A stretch of 64,000 nucleotides of DNA from Pseudoxanthomonas dokdonensis (GTDB taxonomy: Bacteria; Pseudomonadota; Gammaproteobacteria; Xanthomonadales; Xanthomonadaceae). The position numbers were made by a program, and so were the translations under genes. The DNA is taken from contig NZ_LDJL01000011.1 in assembly GCF_001431405.1 (NCBI RefSeq), forward strand, positions 310,001 to 374,000, written 5' to 3'. Each line of letters begins with the position of its first letter. The first letter of the stretch is position 1. The notes under the pieces are model-generated. The model saw nothing but the letters and a program-made list of their open reading frames with translations, made no database searches and had not been told where the DNA came from. Below are positions 40,515 through 49,876 of the stretch, in pieces.

Positions 40515-41573
40515 GTGTCCCAACATCGCATGCCCCAGAACAGCACGCACCAGAACCGCCTGTTCAAATCCGTTCCGCGCCTGGCCGTCCTGGCCCTGGG
40601 CGTGGCCCTGTCGGTCAACGCCTTTGCCGCCGACGTCACCGGCGCCGGTGCGTCGTTCGTCTACCCGGTCATGACCAAGTGGTCGGCCGATTACGCCAAG
40701 GCCACCGGCAAGAAGGTCAACTACCAGTCGATCGGCTCCGGCGGCGGTATCGCCCAGATCAAGGCCGGCACGGTCGACTTCGGCTCTTCCGACGCACCGC
40801 TCAAGCCGGACGAGCTGGCCAAGTTCAACCTGGCCCAGTTCCCGTCGGTGATCGGCGGCGTGGTGCCGGTGATCAACGTCCCGGGCGTGGCTTCCGGCGC
40901 GCTGAAGCTGGATGGTGAAACCCTGGCCAACATCTTCCTCGGCAAGATCAAGAAGTGGAACGACCCGGCCATCGCCGCCAGCAACGGCGGGGTGACCCTG
41001 CCTGACATGAAGATCACCGTGGTCCACCGTTCGGATGGTTCCGGTACCACCTTCAACTTCGTCAACTACCTGTCCAAGGTCAGCGGCGAGTGGAAGAGCA
41101 GCGTTGGCGAAGGCACCAGCGTGCAGTGGCCGGTCGGCATCGGCGGCAAGGGCAACGAGGGCGTGGCCGCCTATGTCAAGCAGATCAAGGGTGGCATCGG
41201 CTACGTCGAACTGTCCTACGCGCTGCAGAACAAGATGGCCTATTCGCGGGTGAAGAACGCCGCCGGCAACTACGTGCTGCCCAGCGACCAGACCTTCTCC
41301 AACGCCGCCGCCAGCGCCGACTGGGCCAACGCCAAGGATTTCTACCTGGTGATGACCAACGCACCGGGCGCGGAGTCGTGGCCGATTACCGCCACCAACT
41401 TCATCCTGGTCAGCAAAGCGCCGAAGAACCCCACCAGCGCCAAGCAGGCGCGCGAGTTCTTCAAATGGGTTTACGCCAACGGTGACGAGCAGGCCAAGGC
41501 ACTGGACTACGTGCCCCTGCCAGACTCGTTGGTGCAGAGCATCGAAAGCTACTGGAGCAGCCAGCTGAAGTGA
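40515..41573 (+). CDS. pstS: phosphate ABC transporter substrate-binding protein PstS (secreted form)
   Basis: A 352-residue periplasmic protein. Signal peptide ends VNAFAA, mature start DVTGAGASFVYPVMTKWSADY. Phosphate-binding motifs are visible: GAGASF, SIGSGGGIAQIKAGTVDFGSSDAPL, and HRSDGSGTTFNFVNYL. It captures phosphate for PstCAB. Start is GTG with GGAG upstream; ATG at 40530 is an alternative. A strong terminator separates it from a second, closely similar PstS. Confidence 0.96.
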   Translation: MSQHRMPQNSTHQNRLFKSVPRLAVLALGVALSVNAFAADVTGAGASFVYPVMTKWSADYAKATGKKVNYQSIGSGGGIAQIKAGTVDFGSSDAPLKPDELAKFNLAQFPSVIGGVVPVINVPGVASGALKLDGETLANIFLGKIKKWNDPAIAASNGGVTLPDMKITVVHRSDGSGTTFNFVNYLSKVSGEWKSSVGEGTSVQWPVGIGGKGNEGVAAYVKQIKGGIGYVELSYALQNKMAYSRVKNAAGNYVLPSDQTFSNAAASADWANAKDFYLVMTNAPGAESWPITATNFILVSKAPKNPTSAKQAREFFKWVYANGDEQAKALDYVPLPDSLVQSIESYWSSQLK

Positions 41574-41755: not shown

Positions 41756-42853
41756 ATGCGTGTGTCCCAGCCGGTCCGTATCGCCGCCCTCGCCCTGTCC
41801 GCCGCGTTGTTCGTGGCCGCCTGCAAACCCTCCAGCGACGCACCGGCGGCCGCCACCGGCAACCAGCCGGCTGCCGCCAGTGCGGAAAGTGGCAGCCGCC
41901 AGGATGTGCAGATCACCGGCGCCGGCGCCTCGTTCATCTACCCGCTGATGACCCGCTGGTCCGGCGACTACAACGCCAGCACCGGGGCCAAGATCAACTA
42001 CCAGTCGATCGGCTCCGGCGGCGGCATTGCCCAGATCAAGGCCGCCACTGTCGATTTCGGTTCCTCCGACAAGCCGCTGGCACCCGAAGAACTGGCCCAG
42101 GCCGGCCTGGGCCAGTTCCCGTCGGTGATTGGCGGCGTGGTCCCGGTCATCAACGTCGAGGGCCTGGAGCCGGGCCAGCTCAAGCTCAACGGCGCGCTGC
42201 TGGCGGACATCTTCCTCGGCAAGATCAAGAAATGGAACGACCCGGCGATTGCCGCGCTCAACGCCGGTGTGACCCTGCCGGATGATGAAATCCACACCGT
42301 GCACCGCTCCGATGGCTCGGGCACGACCTTCAACTTCGTCAACTACCTGTCCAAGGTCAGCCCGGAGTGGAAGGAAAAGATTGGCGAAGGCACTTCGGTG
42401 AACTGGGTCGGTGGCGTCGGTGGCAAGGGCAATGAAGGCGTCGCCGCCTACGTGCGCCAGCTGAAGAACTCCATCGGTTACGTCGAGCTGGCCTACGCCG
42501 AACAGAACCACATGAGCTACGCCTCGATGCAGAATGCCGCCGGCAATTTCGTCAAGCCGACCGCCGAGGCGTTCGCCGCCGCCGCCGCCAGCGCCGACTG
42601 GGCCAGCGCCAAGGACTTCGATCTGGTCATCACCAACGCACCGGGTGACCAGGCCTGGCCGATCACCGCCACCAATTTCATCCTGGTCTACAAGCAGCCC
42701 AAGGACGCGGCCAAGGCGCAGAACACCCTGGACTTCTTCAAGTGGGCCTACGAGCAGGGCCAGGCGCAGGCCAAGGAACTGGACTACGTGCCGCTGCCGC
42801 CTGAACTGGTGACCCAGATCGAAGCCTACTGGGCCAGCGAGATCAAACGCTGA
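41756..42853 (+). CDS. pstS: phosphate-binding PstS, lipoprotein form
   Basis: A 365-residue PstS paralogue with lipobox FVAAC (Cys23) and a Ala/Ser/Pro-rich linker to residue about 50, so it should be membrane-anchored. The binding domain repeats that of the upstream PstS almost segment by segment (GAGASFIYPLMTRW, SIGSGGGIAQIK, FGSSDKPL, HRSDGSGTTFNF). It starts after a Pho box and terminator, with pstCAB downstream, so this is probably the partner of the permease. GGAG precedes ATG. Confidence 0.95.
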   Translation: MRVSQPVRIAALALSAALFVAACKPSSDAPAAATGNQPAAASAESGSRQDVQITGAGASFIYPLMTRWSGDYNASTGAKINYQSIGSGGGIAQIKAATVDFGSSDKPLAPEELAQAGLGQFPSVIGGVVPVINVEGLEPGQLKLNGALLADIFLGKIKKWNDPAIAALNAGVTLPDDEIHTVHRSDGSGTTFNFVNYLSKVSPEWKEKIGEGTSVNWVGGVGGKGNEGVAAYVRQLKNSIGYVELAYAEQNHMSYASMQNAAGNFVKPTAEAFAAAAASADWASAKDFDLVITNAPGDQAWPITATNFILVYKQPKDAAKAQNTLDFFKWAYEQGQAQAKELDYVPLPPELVTQIEAYWASEIKR

Positions 42854-45658: not shown

Positions 45659-46363
45659 ATGAACACCCATGAGCACATCGTGAAAAGCTACGACGAAGAG
45701 CAACGCCATCTGTCCGGCGAGATCGTTCGCATGTGCGACATGGCCATCGCCCAGCTGGAGGCCGCGCTGGACGTGGTCGAGCGCCGCGACGACCGTGCCG
45801 CCGAACGCATCATCGCCAATGACGAGGCCATCGACGCGCTCGAGAACAGCCTCAGCCACGACGTGATGCAGCTGGCCCTGCGCGGGCCGATGGCGCGTGA
45901 CCTGCGTGAGATCCTGGCCGCACTGCGGATTCCGTCGGACATCGAGCGCATTGGCGACTATGCCGCCAACGTCGCCAAGCGCTCGATCGCCCTCAACCTG
46001 TCGCCGCCGATGCCGCACATCACCGGCCTGCGGGCACTGGGCAAGCTGGCGGTGCGGCAGCTGCGCGAGGTCATCATCGCCTACCGCGACAACGATGCGG
46101 TGCTGGCGCTGAAGGTCCGCGAGAACGATGCCGAGCTGGACGAGCAGTACACCGCCCTGTTCCGCGAACTGCTGACCTACATGATGGAAGACCCGCGCAA
46201 CATCACCCCGTGCACCCATCTGCTGTTCATGGCCAAGAACCTGGAGCGGATTGGCGACCACGCCACCAACATCGCCGAGAACGTTTGGTTCCTGGTTCAC
46301 GGCGAACAGCCGCTACCGCCCCGCGACAAACGTGACAGCACCAGCAGCGCGCTGCCGCTGTAA
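45659..46363 (+). CDS. phoU: phosphate signalling protein PhoU
   Basis: A 234-residue all-helical protein with two PhoU repeats; key acidic metal-binding stretches are ANDEAIDALEN...LRIPSDIERIGDYAAN and LLFMAKNLERIGDHATNIAEN. PhoU links the Pst transporter to the PhoR sensor and represses the Pho regulon when phosphate is plentiful. It is the last gene of the pst operon, 81 bp after pstB. Confidence 0.97.
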   Translation: MNTHEHIVKSYDEEQRHLSGEIVRMCDMAIAQLEAALDVVERRDDRAAERIIANDEAIDALENSLSHDVMQLALRGPMARDLREILAALRIPSDIERIGDYAANVAKRSIALNLSPPMPHITGLRALGKLAVRQLREVIIAYRDNDAVLALKVRENDAELDEQYTALFRELLTYMMEDPRNITPCTHLLFMAKNLERIGDHATNIAENVWFLVHGEQPLPPRDKRDSTSSALPL

Positions 46364-46511
46364 GCTCCCCGCGGCAATCAGCTGAACGATTTCTGACCCG
46401 GCGCGGCGGCGGTCCGACCCCGTTGCCCCGGCGACCTGCTCTTTAAGCGAAATTGAACGCCTGTCGGTCCATTGTGGCTGGCAGGGATTCGTCGCCCAGG
46501 GAGACAGGCCA

Positions 46512-47024
46512 ATGAGCATCGCCGACGCGCAGGACATTCTTGCAGCCCGTGACGGGGACGTTGTTGCATTGCAACGCGTGCTCAGCGATTCGCGCCAGAA
46601 CCTGCGCCGGTACGCCGAATATCACTGCGTGGTCAATGACGCCGAGGACGCCCTGCAGGAAAGCCTGCTGCAGGCCTCGCGGCATATCGGCAGCCTGCGT
46701 GCGGTCGAGGCCTTCGCCTCGTGGATGTTCCGCATCGTCAAACGTGAGTGCAACCGGCTCAAACGCGGCCTGCGTACCCTCAGCGGCGACGTTATTACCG
46801 ACGATATCCTGCCGCCGGTTCAGTTCGAACCGGTCGAGATCGGCATGGATGTGGCTTGTGCGCTATCTTCGCTACCAAGCCACTATCGACAGATCATCCT
46901 GCTGCGCGACCTGCAGGGCATGACCATCCAGGAGATTGCCGACCAGCTCGGGGTGACCCGCGAGGCCACCAAGTCGCGCTTGCATCGCGCCCGCGCATTG
47001 GCCCGCGAATACCTGCTGGACTGA
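46512..47024 (+). CDS. ECF-type RNA polymerase sigma factor
   Basis: A 170-residue extracytoplasmic-function sigma factor. Region 2 spans about residues 25-80 (NDAEDALQESLLQASRHIGSLRAVEAFASWMFRIVKRECNRLKR) and region 4 about 115-165 (LPSHYRQIILLRDLQGMTIQEIADQLGVTREATKSRLHRARALARE). No anti-sigma gene is beside it. It is 74 bp upstream of the hvfA-like precursor gene and reads the same way. Sigma factors often accompany MNIO RiPP cassettes and control them in response to copper or other metal stress; that role is inferred here. GGGAG precedes the ATG. Confidence 0.9.
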   Translation: MSIADAQDILAARDGDVVALQRVLSDSRQNLRRYAEYHCVVNDAEDALQESLLQASRHIGSLRAVEAFASWMFRIVKRECNRLKRGLRTLSGDVITDDILPPVQFEPVEIGMDVACALSSLPSHYRQIILLRDLQGMTIQEIADQLGVTREATKSRLHRARALAREYLLD

Positions 47025-47040
47025 ACATCATCGTTTGAAC

Positions 47041-47078
47041 TTGCCGTTTGACCGGCAACCACCCGTGCATCAATGCAC
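47041..47078 (+). promoter_or_regulatory. two adjacent hairpins in the leader of the RiPP precursor
   Basis: TTGCCG / CGGCAA (6-bp arms, 6-nt loop, 47041-47058) and GTGCAT / ATGCAC (6-bp arms, 2-nt loop, 47065-47078) lie between the sigma stop and the precursor ribosome-binding site (GAAGGAG, 47084-47090). They may be an RNA control element, a processing site or operator sequence. Confidence 0.5.
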
Positions 47079-47098
47079 ACATTGAAGGAGTAATACCC

Positions 47099-47491
47099 AT
47101 GTCGAAGTCCAACAAGAAGCCCGTCACCATCGCCGCAGGCGCCGTCCTGGCGGGCGGTCTCGCCCTGGCCGGTTCGGCATTTGCCATGCAGCCGCTGCAG
47201 CAGGGCTACCTGCTGGCCGCCAGTGGCCAGGACCATGCCGCCGCCGACAAGAAAGCCGAAGGCAGCTGCGGTGCTGACAAGAAGGCCGAGGGCAGCTGCG
47301 GCGCCGACAAGAAAGCCGGTGCCGAAGGCAAGTGCGGTGAAGGCAAGTGTGGCGCCGACAAGAAGGCTGGCGAAGGCAAGTGCGGTGAAGGCAAATGCGG
47401 CGCCGACAAGAAGGCCGAACATGCTGACGCCGCCGACAAGGCCGGCAAGGAAGGCGTGTGCGGCGAAGGCAAGTGCGGCGGCAGCCTGTAA
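47099..47491 (+). CDS. hvfA: HvfA-like RiPP precursor, exported, eight EGxCG motifs
   Basis: A 130-residue protein. A signal peptide (MSKSNKKPVTIAAGAVLAGGLALAGSAFA) precedes a low-complexity core of Ala, Asp, Lys, Gly and Cys. All eight Cys (57, 67, 79, 84, 95, 100, 121, 126) are in EGxCG: EGSCG twice, EGKCG five times, EGVCG once. Six form tandem pairs. In the HvfA family of Haemophilus influenzae, EGKCG motifs are converted to oxazolone/thioamide copper-binding groups by the MNIO enzyme HvfB with HvfC. The genes for both follow here. Modification of this protein is inferred. AAGGAG precedes ATG. Confidence 0.88.
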   Translation: MSKSNKKPVTIAAGAVLAGGLALAGSAFAMQPLQQGYLLAASGQDHAAADKKAEGSCGADKKAEGSCGADKKAGAEGKCGEGKCGADKKAGEGKCGEGKCGADKKAEHADAADKAGKEGVCGEGKCGGSL

Positions 47492-47518
47492 GCGGGCCGA
47501 CTCGGACGGAGTACACGC

Positions 47519-48388
47519 ATGAGCGAACGTCCCACCCGATACAGCGCCGGCCTGGGTCTGCGACGCGGCCTGATGGACGCATTGTTGCAGGCCCCGGAGG
47601 GCGCATTCGATTTCCTTGAATGCGCACCGGACAACTGGATCGGCGTGGGCGGACGCTACGGGGACGCGCTGGCACGACTGTCAGCGCGCCACCCCCTGAC
47701 CTGCCACGGTCTGTCACTGTCGCTGGGCGGAGTGGAACCACTGGATGAAACCTTCCTGGTCCGCACCCGGCGCTTCCTCGATCAGCACCAGGTCGCACTT
47801 TACAGCGAGCACCTGAGTTACTGCACCGACGACGGTCATCTGTACGACCTGATGCCGATCCCGTTCACCGAAGAAGCCGTCGGCCACGTCGCCGCCCGCA
47901 TCGGCCAGGTCCAGGACATTCTCGGCCGGCGCATCGCGGTGGAGAACGTTTCCTATTACGCCGCGCCGTTCCAGGCCATGGACGAAGTCGATTTCGTCAA
48001 CGCGGTACTGCAGGAGGCCGACTGCGACCTGCTGCTGGACGTCAACAACATCTACGTCAATGCCATCAACCACGGCTATGACGCGCACCAGTTCCTGCAA
48101 CGGATGCCGTCATCGCGCATCGTTTCGTACCACATCGCCGGCCACTACGACGAGGCCGGGGATCTGAAGGTCGATACCCATGGCGCCGCGGTCAAGGACG
48201 ATGTCTGGTCGTTGCTGCAGGCAGCCTACGCACAACACGGCGTGCAGCCGACGCTGCTGGAGCGCGATTTCAATTTCCCGCCGTTGGCCGAGCTGCTGGT
48301 GGAAGTACAGCGCATCCGTCAGCTGCAAGCCGATGCATCACAGGCCAACCACGCCGGCCAGCAGGTGAGTCATGCCGCACGCGCCTGA
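47519..48388 (+). CDS. hvfB: MNIO (DUF692) multinuclear iron oxygenase, HvfB-like
   Basis: A 289-residue DUF692 TIM-barrel protein, related to MbnB of methanobactin biosynthesis and HvfB. Likely metal ligands are His63 ([10 protein letters not shown]), Glu97/His98 (YSEHLSY), Glu142/Asn143 (AVENVSYY), Asp174/Asn176 ([11 protein letters not shown]), His205/His209 ([10 protein letters not shown]), Asp219/His221 (VDTHG) and Glu248 (LLERDFNFP). The family oxidises cysteine side chains of a peptide using di- or tri-iron and O2. It is 27 bp after hvfA and overlaps the partner gene by 17 bp, so the precursor, enzyme and partner are one unit. Confidence 0.93.
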
Positions 48389-49145
48389 GCAGTTGCGCCA
48401 GCAGCAGCTGCAACTGGCCAGCCACCTGCGCGACCCGGCCCGCCATGCAGCGCCGGCGGGACTGGAAGATCGCCGGCTGGCGATTTACCGCAGCCTGTTT
48501 TTCAACAATATCGAAGCATTGCTGGCCGGCAACTTTCCGGTCATCCGCAAGACCCTGGGCGAGGCCGGCTGGCAGCAGTTGGTGCGTGCGTTCTATGCCG
48601 ATTACCGCTGCCACACGCCACTGTTCACCGAAATCGGTCGCGAGTTCATCCAGTTCCTGCAGCAACGCGGCGAACAGCAGCCGGCACCGGACCCGGAATG
48701 GCTGGCCGAACTGGCGCATTACGAGTGGGTAGAGCTGGCGCTGCAGATTTCCGATGAGCCGACACCGGCACATGACCCCGATGGCGATTTGCTTGCCGGC
48801 ACGCCACTGTTGTCACCGACGGCCTGGGCGCTGGCCTACCGCTGGCCGGTGCAGCAGATTGGTCCGGACTTCCAGCCCACGCAGGCGCCTGCCGCGCCGA
48901 CGCTGCTGCTGGTGCGGCGCGACGCCGATTACCGCATCCATTTCGCCGCCATATCAGCACTGGTGTACCGGTTGCTGGAGCTGCTGGGCGAAGACCAGCG
49001 CAGCGGTCGCGAGCTACTCGAGCAACTGGCTACGGAGGCTGCCAGCGAGGATCTGGCCAGCTTCGTCCGCGATGGCGGCGCCATGCTCGAACAACTGCGC
49101 CAGCAAGGCACCTTGCTGGGCACTGACGACCGGAGCAGCGCCTGA
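48372..49145 (+). CDS. hvfC: DUF2063 RiPP-recognition partner protein, HvfC-like
   Basis: A 257-residue protein. The N-terminal DUF2063 region has [49 protein letters not shown], with the typical R-L-A-I-Y-R-x-L-F-x-N motif; a second helical domain follows. DUF2063 proteins pair with MNIO enzymes (MbnC/HvfC role) and present the precursor peptide. Overlap with the MNIO gene supports direct complex formation. The name of the domain in older databases, putative DNA-binding, is probably misleading. Confidence 0.9.
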
Positions 49146-49197
49146 AGCGCGCACACCGCGGTGCCGATGCTCCTGAGCAAGCGCGCAAGCCGTTGAT

Positions 49198-49214
49198 CCG
49201 GCAGGTCCTGCCGG
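49198..49214. other. stem-loop between hvfC and rnt
   Basis: CCGGCAG and CTGCCGG form a perfect 7-bp stem with a GTC loop. It may mark the end of the hvf transcript, but there is no T run. Confidence 0.4.
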
Positions 49215-49246
49215 GCTCCCCCGGGCCGCTCTGCTAACCTTCCGCC

Positions 49247-49876
49247 ATGACCGATGCCGCCCAACTCCCCACGATCACCCCGATGGCCCGCCGTTTCCGC
49301 GGCTACCTGCCGGTGGTGGTGGACGTGGAAACCGGCGGCTTCGACTGGAACCGCCATGCGCTGCTGGAAATCGCGGTGGTGCCGATTGATCTGGACGAGG
49401 CCGGCGAGCTAATCCTGGGCGACACCGCCAGCGCCCACCTGATTCCCGCGCCGGGCACCGAAATCGACCCCAAGTCGCTGGAAATCACCGGCATCGTCCT
49501 CGATCATCCGTTCCGCTTCGCCAAGGCCGAGCGCGACGCACTGGATCATGTGTTCGCACCGGTCCGCGCCGCGCTCAAGAAACACGGCTGCCAGCGCGCG
49601 ATCCTGGTCGGCCACAACGCCCATTTCGACCTCAATTTCCTCAATGCCGCGGTGGCCCGGACCGGCCACAAGCGCAATCCGTTCCATCCCTTCAGCGTGT
49701 TCGACACGGTCAGCCTGGCCGGTGTCGCCTACGGCCAGACCGTGCTGGCCCGTGCGGTCCAGGCCGCCGGCATGGAATGGAATGCCGAAGACGCGCATTC
49801 GGCGGTCTACGACACCGAGCAGACCGCGCGGCTGTTCTGCAAGATTGTCAACGCCTGGCCGCGGCCGGCCGGCTGA
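49247..49876 (+). CDS. rnt: ribonuclease T
   Basis: A 209-residue DEDD 3'-5' exonuclease that trims tRNA and 5S/23S rRNA ends. Exo I motif is [21 protein letters not shown], Exo [18 protein letters not shown], Exo [17 protein letters not shown]. The length fits the family (E. coli 215 aa). It is 101 bp after hvfC, so probably separate from the RiPP operon. Confidence 0.96.

Follow-up and report, generated by a model that had tools for sequence, protein, structure and literature searches.

A lineage-specific ECF sigma factor gene with conserved promoter-like boxes beside a predicted copper-peptide operon in Lysobacteraceae

How is an ECF sigma factor controlled when its gene heads a peptide-modification operon and no anti-sigma gene lies beside it? 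The question arises from the 64,000-nucleotide stretch of Pseudoxanthomonas dokdonensis DNA analysed here (the window), which comes from a 3.55 Mb genome of the family Lysobacteraceae. A sequence-only reading of the window had described an ECF sigma factor gene followed by genes for an exported precursor, an MNIO and its DUF2063 partner, and had proposed that the sigma factor responds directly to metal or redox state. We examined the genes, their distribution among relatives, and the DNA upstream of sigma. Citations refer to those portions of each source that were covered by our literature search.

Genes of the operon and their predicted product

All four open reading frames were found where they had been described, including the 17 bp overlap between the MNIO and partner genes (Table 1). 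On the + strand the order is pstC-pstA-pstB-phoU, sigma, hvfA, hvfB, hvfC and an RNase T-like exonuclease gene (rnt), all co-directional. The identities of PhoU and RNase_T were backed by Pfam, and the names pstC, pstA and pstB follow our reading of the open reading frames. Two adjacent PstS-like phosphate-binding genes (40515–41573 and 41756–42853) were seen by eye at the head of this operon, and a possible Pho-box-like repeat precedes each of them. The gap between sigma and hvfA, 74 nt in the window, ranges from 45 to 289 nt among relatives. As the same gene order recurs in these relatives, the arrangement is not due to chance.

Table 1. Positions of the features of the locus within the window.
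Feature	Position	Strand	Basis
ECF sigma factor (170 aa) with regions 2 and 4 and without a C-terminal extension	46512..47024	+	ORF, Pfam, NCBIfam
hvfA-type precursor, predicted signal sequence and eight EGxCG, no EF-hand	47099..47491	+	NCBIfam domain model, motif reading
hvfB-type MNIO (DUF692), 289 aa	47519..48388	+	Pfam, NCBIfam, motifs
hvfC-type partner (DUF2063 and NGO1945_C/RRE), 257 aa	48372..49145	+	Pfam, NCBIfam
Direct repeat CTGAAC-N5-CTGACC (period 11), a putative activator site, 16 nt upstream of the −35 box	46382..46398	+	Repeat scoring across loci
ECF-like promoter preceding sigma (CGACCC-N18-CTCTT)	46415..46443	+	Pattern across sigma loci
Small dyad (GTGCA-TCAA-TGCAC) upstream of the Shine-Dalgarno sequence of hvfA	47065..47078	+	Sequence reading, leaders of relatives

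The sigma factor matched the Pfam families Sigma70_r4_2 (1.4e-16) and Sigma70_r2 (3.9e-7), both over the cut-off. The assignment of the remaining genes to an HvfABC-type operon was borne out by family models. The MNIO, the single one found in a search of the whole genome, matched MbnB_TglH_ChrH in Pfam (2.7e-103) and passed the NCBIfam HvfB family model (438 bits, cut-off 360); the BufB model was not reached (271 bits, cut-off 310), and a methanobactin MbnB-type enzyme was rejected (55.5 bits against a cut-off of 325). The partner matched DUF2063 (6.1e-26) and NGO1945_C (5.4e-27) in Pfam and passed the NCBIfam HvfC family model (HvfC, PME1; 315 bits, cut-off 142). Compared with the H. somni MNIO 3BWW, the window enzyme scored 258.6 bits, and the two have in common the motifs HGLS, HLS, VEN.SYY, LDVNNIY, HIAGH, DTHG and ERDFNFPP, in which the iron ligands presumably sit. 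As matched by motif and number, its residues R15, R16 and D250-F251 stand at the places of R15, R16, D249 and F250, which are named for FonB (PMC13097082).

A mechanical reading frame for the precursor starts at TTG 47048. The most likely start appears to be ATG 47099, giving a protein of 130 aa, chosen for its Shine-Dalgarno sequence, lysine-rich tip and hydrophobic stretch ending AFA. The product is predicted to be exported, in line with the earlier description, and the eight EGxCG motifs counted previously were all recovered, at residues 54, 64, 76, 81, 92, 97, 118 and 123; two are EGSCG, five EGKCG and one EGVCG, and together they hold all eight cysteines. The NCBIfam domain model KCGExKCG_twice was passed (70.7 bits, cut-off 19.5), the narrower NCBIfam HvfA equivalog model was missed (48.6 bits of 95), and no Pfam family matched the precursor. 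Orthologous loci of the genus were also compared (27 hvfABC loci from 38 genomes, reduced to 26 by dropping L027, which is cut by a contig end). An EF-hand-like pair occurs in 25 of the 26 genus precursors (L003–L026 and L028), in most of them between EGKCG blocks, and is absent from the window precursor. In the proteins described in PMC12452194, EF-hands are fused behind a short EGKCG domain; here EGKCG flanks the EF-hand pair.

FonBC tolerates Ala, Arg and Thr at motif position 3, and does not tolerate Phe or Glu (PMC13097082); the two EGSCG motifs and the EGVCG motif of the window are therefore plausible substrates by analogy. The HvfA product, first called an oxazolone/thioamide, has been reassigned to 5-thiooxazole (PMC13097082; PMC13419390), and the oxazolone/thioamide copper ligands of the earlier description are thus outdated. 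Copper binding by related products has been published (PMC13097082; PMC12452194). Judged by its sequence, the hvfABC part reads as an ordinary EGKCG ('oxazolin'/captophorin) cluster, and the operon should make a copper-binding modified peptide, for which we infer both the modification and the metal.

Linkage and distribution of the sigma factor

In a sample of 198 family genomes (sigma E ≤ 1e-30, HvfB E ≤ 1e-90), 52 sigma matches were found in 51 genomes, and HvfB matches in 137. HvfB lay within about 2 kb downstream for 45 of the 52 sigma genes, as paired by hand, and two more sat at a contig edge with an EGxCG gene adjacent. The other five matches (45–55% identity) had no linked HvfB; three of these had a divergent MNIO (38–42%) within about 3 kb. 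The sigma factor is thus linked to the EGxCG operon in relatives too, in support of the earlier description. Of 26 hvf-linked loci read at 7–12 kb, 25 have rnt downstream and 19 have phoU upstream (three of them 3–4 kb off). By the pairing counts, about 90 of the 137 hvfB-bearing genomes have no linked sigma. At order level sigma was found in 12 of 250 genomes (E ≤ 1e-25), nine of them in the same family, and at class level in two of 274 (E ≤ 1e-22), among them the genome of the window itself. Sigma is thus rare outside Lysobacteraceae.

Within the genus, sigma is present at nine of the 26 hvfABC loci and absent from 17. phoU, hvfABC and rnt were in place at all eight sigma-less loci that were read further, and sigma was absent genome-wide in the three sigma-less genomes searched whole (G003, G021 and G028). 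A quick HvfB and HvfC tree of 41 rows, 15 of them outgroup rows picked by sigma, required three changes of sigma state, and the same number when only starred branches were considered; the method cannot tell gain from loss, and repeated loss is what we infer. Given the sigma-less loci and the three changes, sigma is dispensable.

As an alternative, sigma could be a passenger controlling other genes, with hvfABC driven by a housekeeping promoter. A TACAAT/TACACT box precedes hvfA at all 17 sigma-less genus loci and at eight of the nine that bear sigma; the TACACT box at the latter could allow transcription of hvfABC in the absence of sigma. In the window there is no such box, and no sigma-70 promoter was found within 46200–49300. 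Against the passenger explanation stand the missing box, the linkage of sigma to the operon in 45–47 of 52 cases, and a promoter pattern, described below, with no recurring match elsewhere. We consider the passenger explanation highly unlikely.

The hvfA leader was also examined. Many relatives, with or without sigma, have a GCGG-N-CCGC dyad at a place similar to that of the small dyad of the window (Table 1), and most members of a set of 59 distinct leaders show, by eye, a GC-rich dyad ahead of hvfA. An RNA hairpin before hvfA was rejected: RNAalifold on 53 sequences (52 leaders and the window) predicted no pairs. Covariation of the named leader stem was not beyond that of shuffles, in an alignment where MAFFT left the window's dyad out of register. 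The folding z of the window leader was −1.59, and Rfam gave one match on 46300–47300 (E 0.63), far under the gathering score.

Conserved DNA upstream of sigma

Upstream of sigma lies an ECF-like promoter, CGMAYC-N18-CTCTT, and the scan pattern CGMMYC-N18-CWCWY was present in 36 of 46 distinct sigma loci. No other spacing from 8 to 29 was found in more than six of the 46, and the reverse strand gave two. In 31 of the 36 loci, the distance from the first base of CTCTT to the aligned start of sigma is 60–88 nt. With loci selected by the motif, box columns average 1.45–1.49 bits and the spacer 0.39. One −35 position is A in 35 of the 36 loci and C in the window. Among the ten loci without boxes, three are near misses, two are not hvf-linked and five are hvf-linked.

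Across 22 genomes the strict pattern was not enriched (55 matches, against 67 for the reversed control); of the 15 genomes with sigma, 11 have it at the sigma gene, and none of the seven without sigma has it at the hvf locus. By an earlier scoring, eight of 33 sigma loci scored no higher than the top one of their 50 shuffles, and the scores of sigma-less loci (11–14) overlapped slightly with those of sigma loci (13–19). The patterns and weights used for the promoter, and for the repeat described below, were drawn from the same loci, which share ancestry.

The boxes could instead mark a terminator or attenuator after phoU, with sigma transcribed otherwise. In three near-identical loci (L012, L033 and L084) they lie inside a GC-rich hairpin of 14 pairs that ends just before CTCTT, and in the window a weak terminator-like stem of five pairs overlaps the promoter. 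The window stem, however, was reached by 21 of 100 shuffles, which is chance level, and in only five of the 36 loci was the stem before CTCTT reached by five or fewer of 100 shuffles. Moreover, a fixed 18-nt spacing is no terminator trait, and the boxes are present where phoU is not the neighbour: in three loci with phoU 3–4 kb away they stay with sigma. A terminator is thus very unlikely.

Upstream of the −35 box, a direct repeat of period 11 was identified (consensus YTRAAY-N5-CTGAAY). It scored at least 10.5 in 27 of the 36 loci and lower in nine; no other period from 7 to 22 reached that score in more than six of the 36. The best repeat lies either 14–16 nt (22 loci) or 24–26 nt (13 loci) before the −35 box, which together accounts for 35 of 36 loci, with one that differs. 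The repeat region averages only 0.23 bits in the anchored alignment, as expected from two different distances to the −35 box. Such a shift, of one helical turn, is compatible with an activator bound to one face of the DNA. The window carries a weaker copy (CTGAAC-N5-CTGACC, N16, CGACCC).

The pattern CTRAAY-N5-CTGAAY gave 18 matches in 15 genomes, against one for the control. Eleven of the 18 are sigma sites, in genomes that had been chosen for bearing one; seven (L201–L207) lie beside other genes, such as an Hsp20-like gene in L206. Inspection of these seven sites by eye identified no recurring gene and no regulator. The repeat resembles, we presume, the BqsR box. PhoB was considered as the binder, since a pst/phoU-like operon adjoins, and was rejected: the Pho box contains TGT, which the repeat lacks. 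A sigma promoter under a regulator is the trait of SigE/CseBC-type control; here a conserved phased repeat was seen, and the regulator is putative.

Cysteines of the sigma factor and the anti-sigma question

Direct metal or redox control, as proposed earlier, could operate through C39 and C80 of the sigma protein (with H38 and H124), which would sense metal or oxidant with no need of an anti-sigma factor. All 44 aligned homologs of at least 50% identity have these four residues, a set from which L075 and L097, not linked to hvfA, had been dropped beforehand; both retain C39 and C80, as do all 16 homologs of at least 43% identity whose alignment covers them. In a structure model (pLDDT 81, pTM 0.54), with helices at 17–38, 41–61 and 68–84, the helices could bring the C39 hinge near C80. 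Among 34 control ECFs (<40% identity), C39 was found in one of 16 (10 gaps) and C80 in six of 30 (3 gaps), a thin control in which, because of the gaps, the contrast rests on few letters.

Against direct sensing, invariant cysteines may be structural, and the sigma factor lacks the features of CorE (Myxococcus xanthus), which, like the window sigma, is a copper-linked ECF without an anti-sigma, and whose sensing relies on a Cys-rich domain at the C-terminus together with a CXC linker (PMC8999054). CorE-type control was rejected, as region 4 reaches residue 162 of the 170 and leaves no Cys-rich extension. Direct control has the invariant cysteines in its favour; the conserved region upstream of sigma points at least as strongly to transcriptional control. 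We regard direct sensing as rather unlikely, yet as a serious competitor of the reading favoured below.

No anti-sigma gene was found adjacent to sigma in the window or in the loci of relatives, in agreement with the earlier description. Genome-wide, a search for the NrsF and zf-HC2 families gave no match, and control of the NrsF type was rejected on that ground. An anti-sigma encoded elsewhere in the genome, for instance a small one like HrsE or a membrane protein that escaped recognition, would nevertheless have precedent, since known MNIO-linked ECFs have HrsE, NrsF or the putative RsqA (PMC7907618, PMC3511200, PMC10304878). Against it stand the absence of NrsF and zf-HC2, the 74 nt gap between sigma and hvfA (45 to 289 nt in relatives), and the lack of any gene conserved beside sigma in 26 hvf-linked loci at 12 kb, where the window's genes were sought. 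Some distant sigma homologs are, on the other hand, preceded by a small open reading frame for a membrane protein with CPxC near its end. It overlaps or abuts the sigma start in L094, L077 and L177 and resembles, we assume, DUF2892; it is a candidate sensor or anti-sigma for this distant group. For the window, a distant anti-sigma appears improbable.

Proposed mechanism and comparison with known systems

On balance we favour, with modest confidence, a captophorin cluster that buffers copper and is driven by a lineage-specific ECF sigma factor, itself regulated through its own promoter. With the help of HvfC, HvfB would oxidise the EGxCG cysteines of the precursor to 5-thiooxazoles, and the modified product would be exported to the periplasm to hold excess Cu(I). 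Sigma and hvfABC would be co-transcribed from the CGMAYC-N18-CTCTT promoter, which sigma probably recognises itself, giving positive feedback. A DNA-binding activator, most likely a response regulator of the OmpR/PhoB type, may bind the upstream direct repeat and start this loop under envelope metal or oxidative stress.

The hvf (oxazolin) system of H. influenzae has an EGKCG precursor, an MNIO and an RRE partner (PMC13419390), like the window operon, and an ECF sigma factor is likewise associated with both: expression of the H. influenzae doxX/DUF2063/COG3220 operon, which by its gene content would be hvf, depends on the ECF sigma factor RpoE2 (PMC7907618). RpoE2 is encoded elsewhere, beside msrAB and with the anti-sigma HrsE, whereas the window sigma heads its operon with no adjacent anti-sigma. 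The window operon also lacks doxX, the one DoxX of the genome lying elsewhere. The fonABC genes of Fontimonas thermophila, for the captophorin fontiphorin, have the EGKCG motifs, R15/R16 and the D-F residues in common with the window, but no sigma gene is described there in the portions covered.

Caulobacter SigF/NrsF provides a precedent for an ECF with an MNIO (PMC3511200). There, and in Cupriavidus gigPABT/RpoQ-RsqA, an ECF gene lies near an MNIO/DUF2063 operon linked to metal stress, although it is unproven that gig depends on RpoQ (PMC10304878). The L. pneumophila gig genes are induced by gold and copper (PMC5413113). The window differs in that the Caulobacter precursors are of the DUF2282 type and the SigF and RpoQ systems have membrane anti-sigmas; the SigF promoter is GTAACC-N16-CGAA, in contrast to the consensus at sigma. 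Pseudomonas aeruginosa EfhP has four EGKCG motifs, and its transcription needs the two-component system CarSR (PMC11559002); an EF-hand pair is carried by most relatives of the window precursor, though not by that precursor itself. ECFs free of an anti-sigma and under transcriptional or two-component control do exist (PMC8999054).

In the portions covered, PMC12452194 reports sigma and NrsF genes alongside Buf1 clusters but mentions no sigma with those of the EGKCG type, and among the publications listed by our literature search none concerned a Lysobacteraceae sigma beside an EGKCG operon. The hvfABC genes are known; a sigma factor without an adjacent inhibitor and with a well conserved promoter is the sole part that looks new. 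A distinctly improbable variant is that sigma acts as its own sensor through the invariant region 2 cysteine pair while also under a dedicated response regulator on the phased repeat. If true, the thiooxazole copper peptide would be under a switch with two inputs, a kind of ECF control not met in the literature covered. The locus is a compact, testable case, with a small sigma factor, a promoter of fixed 18-nt spacing, a helically phased repeat, and relatives that keep the operon in the same place without sigma.
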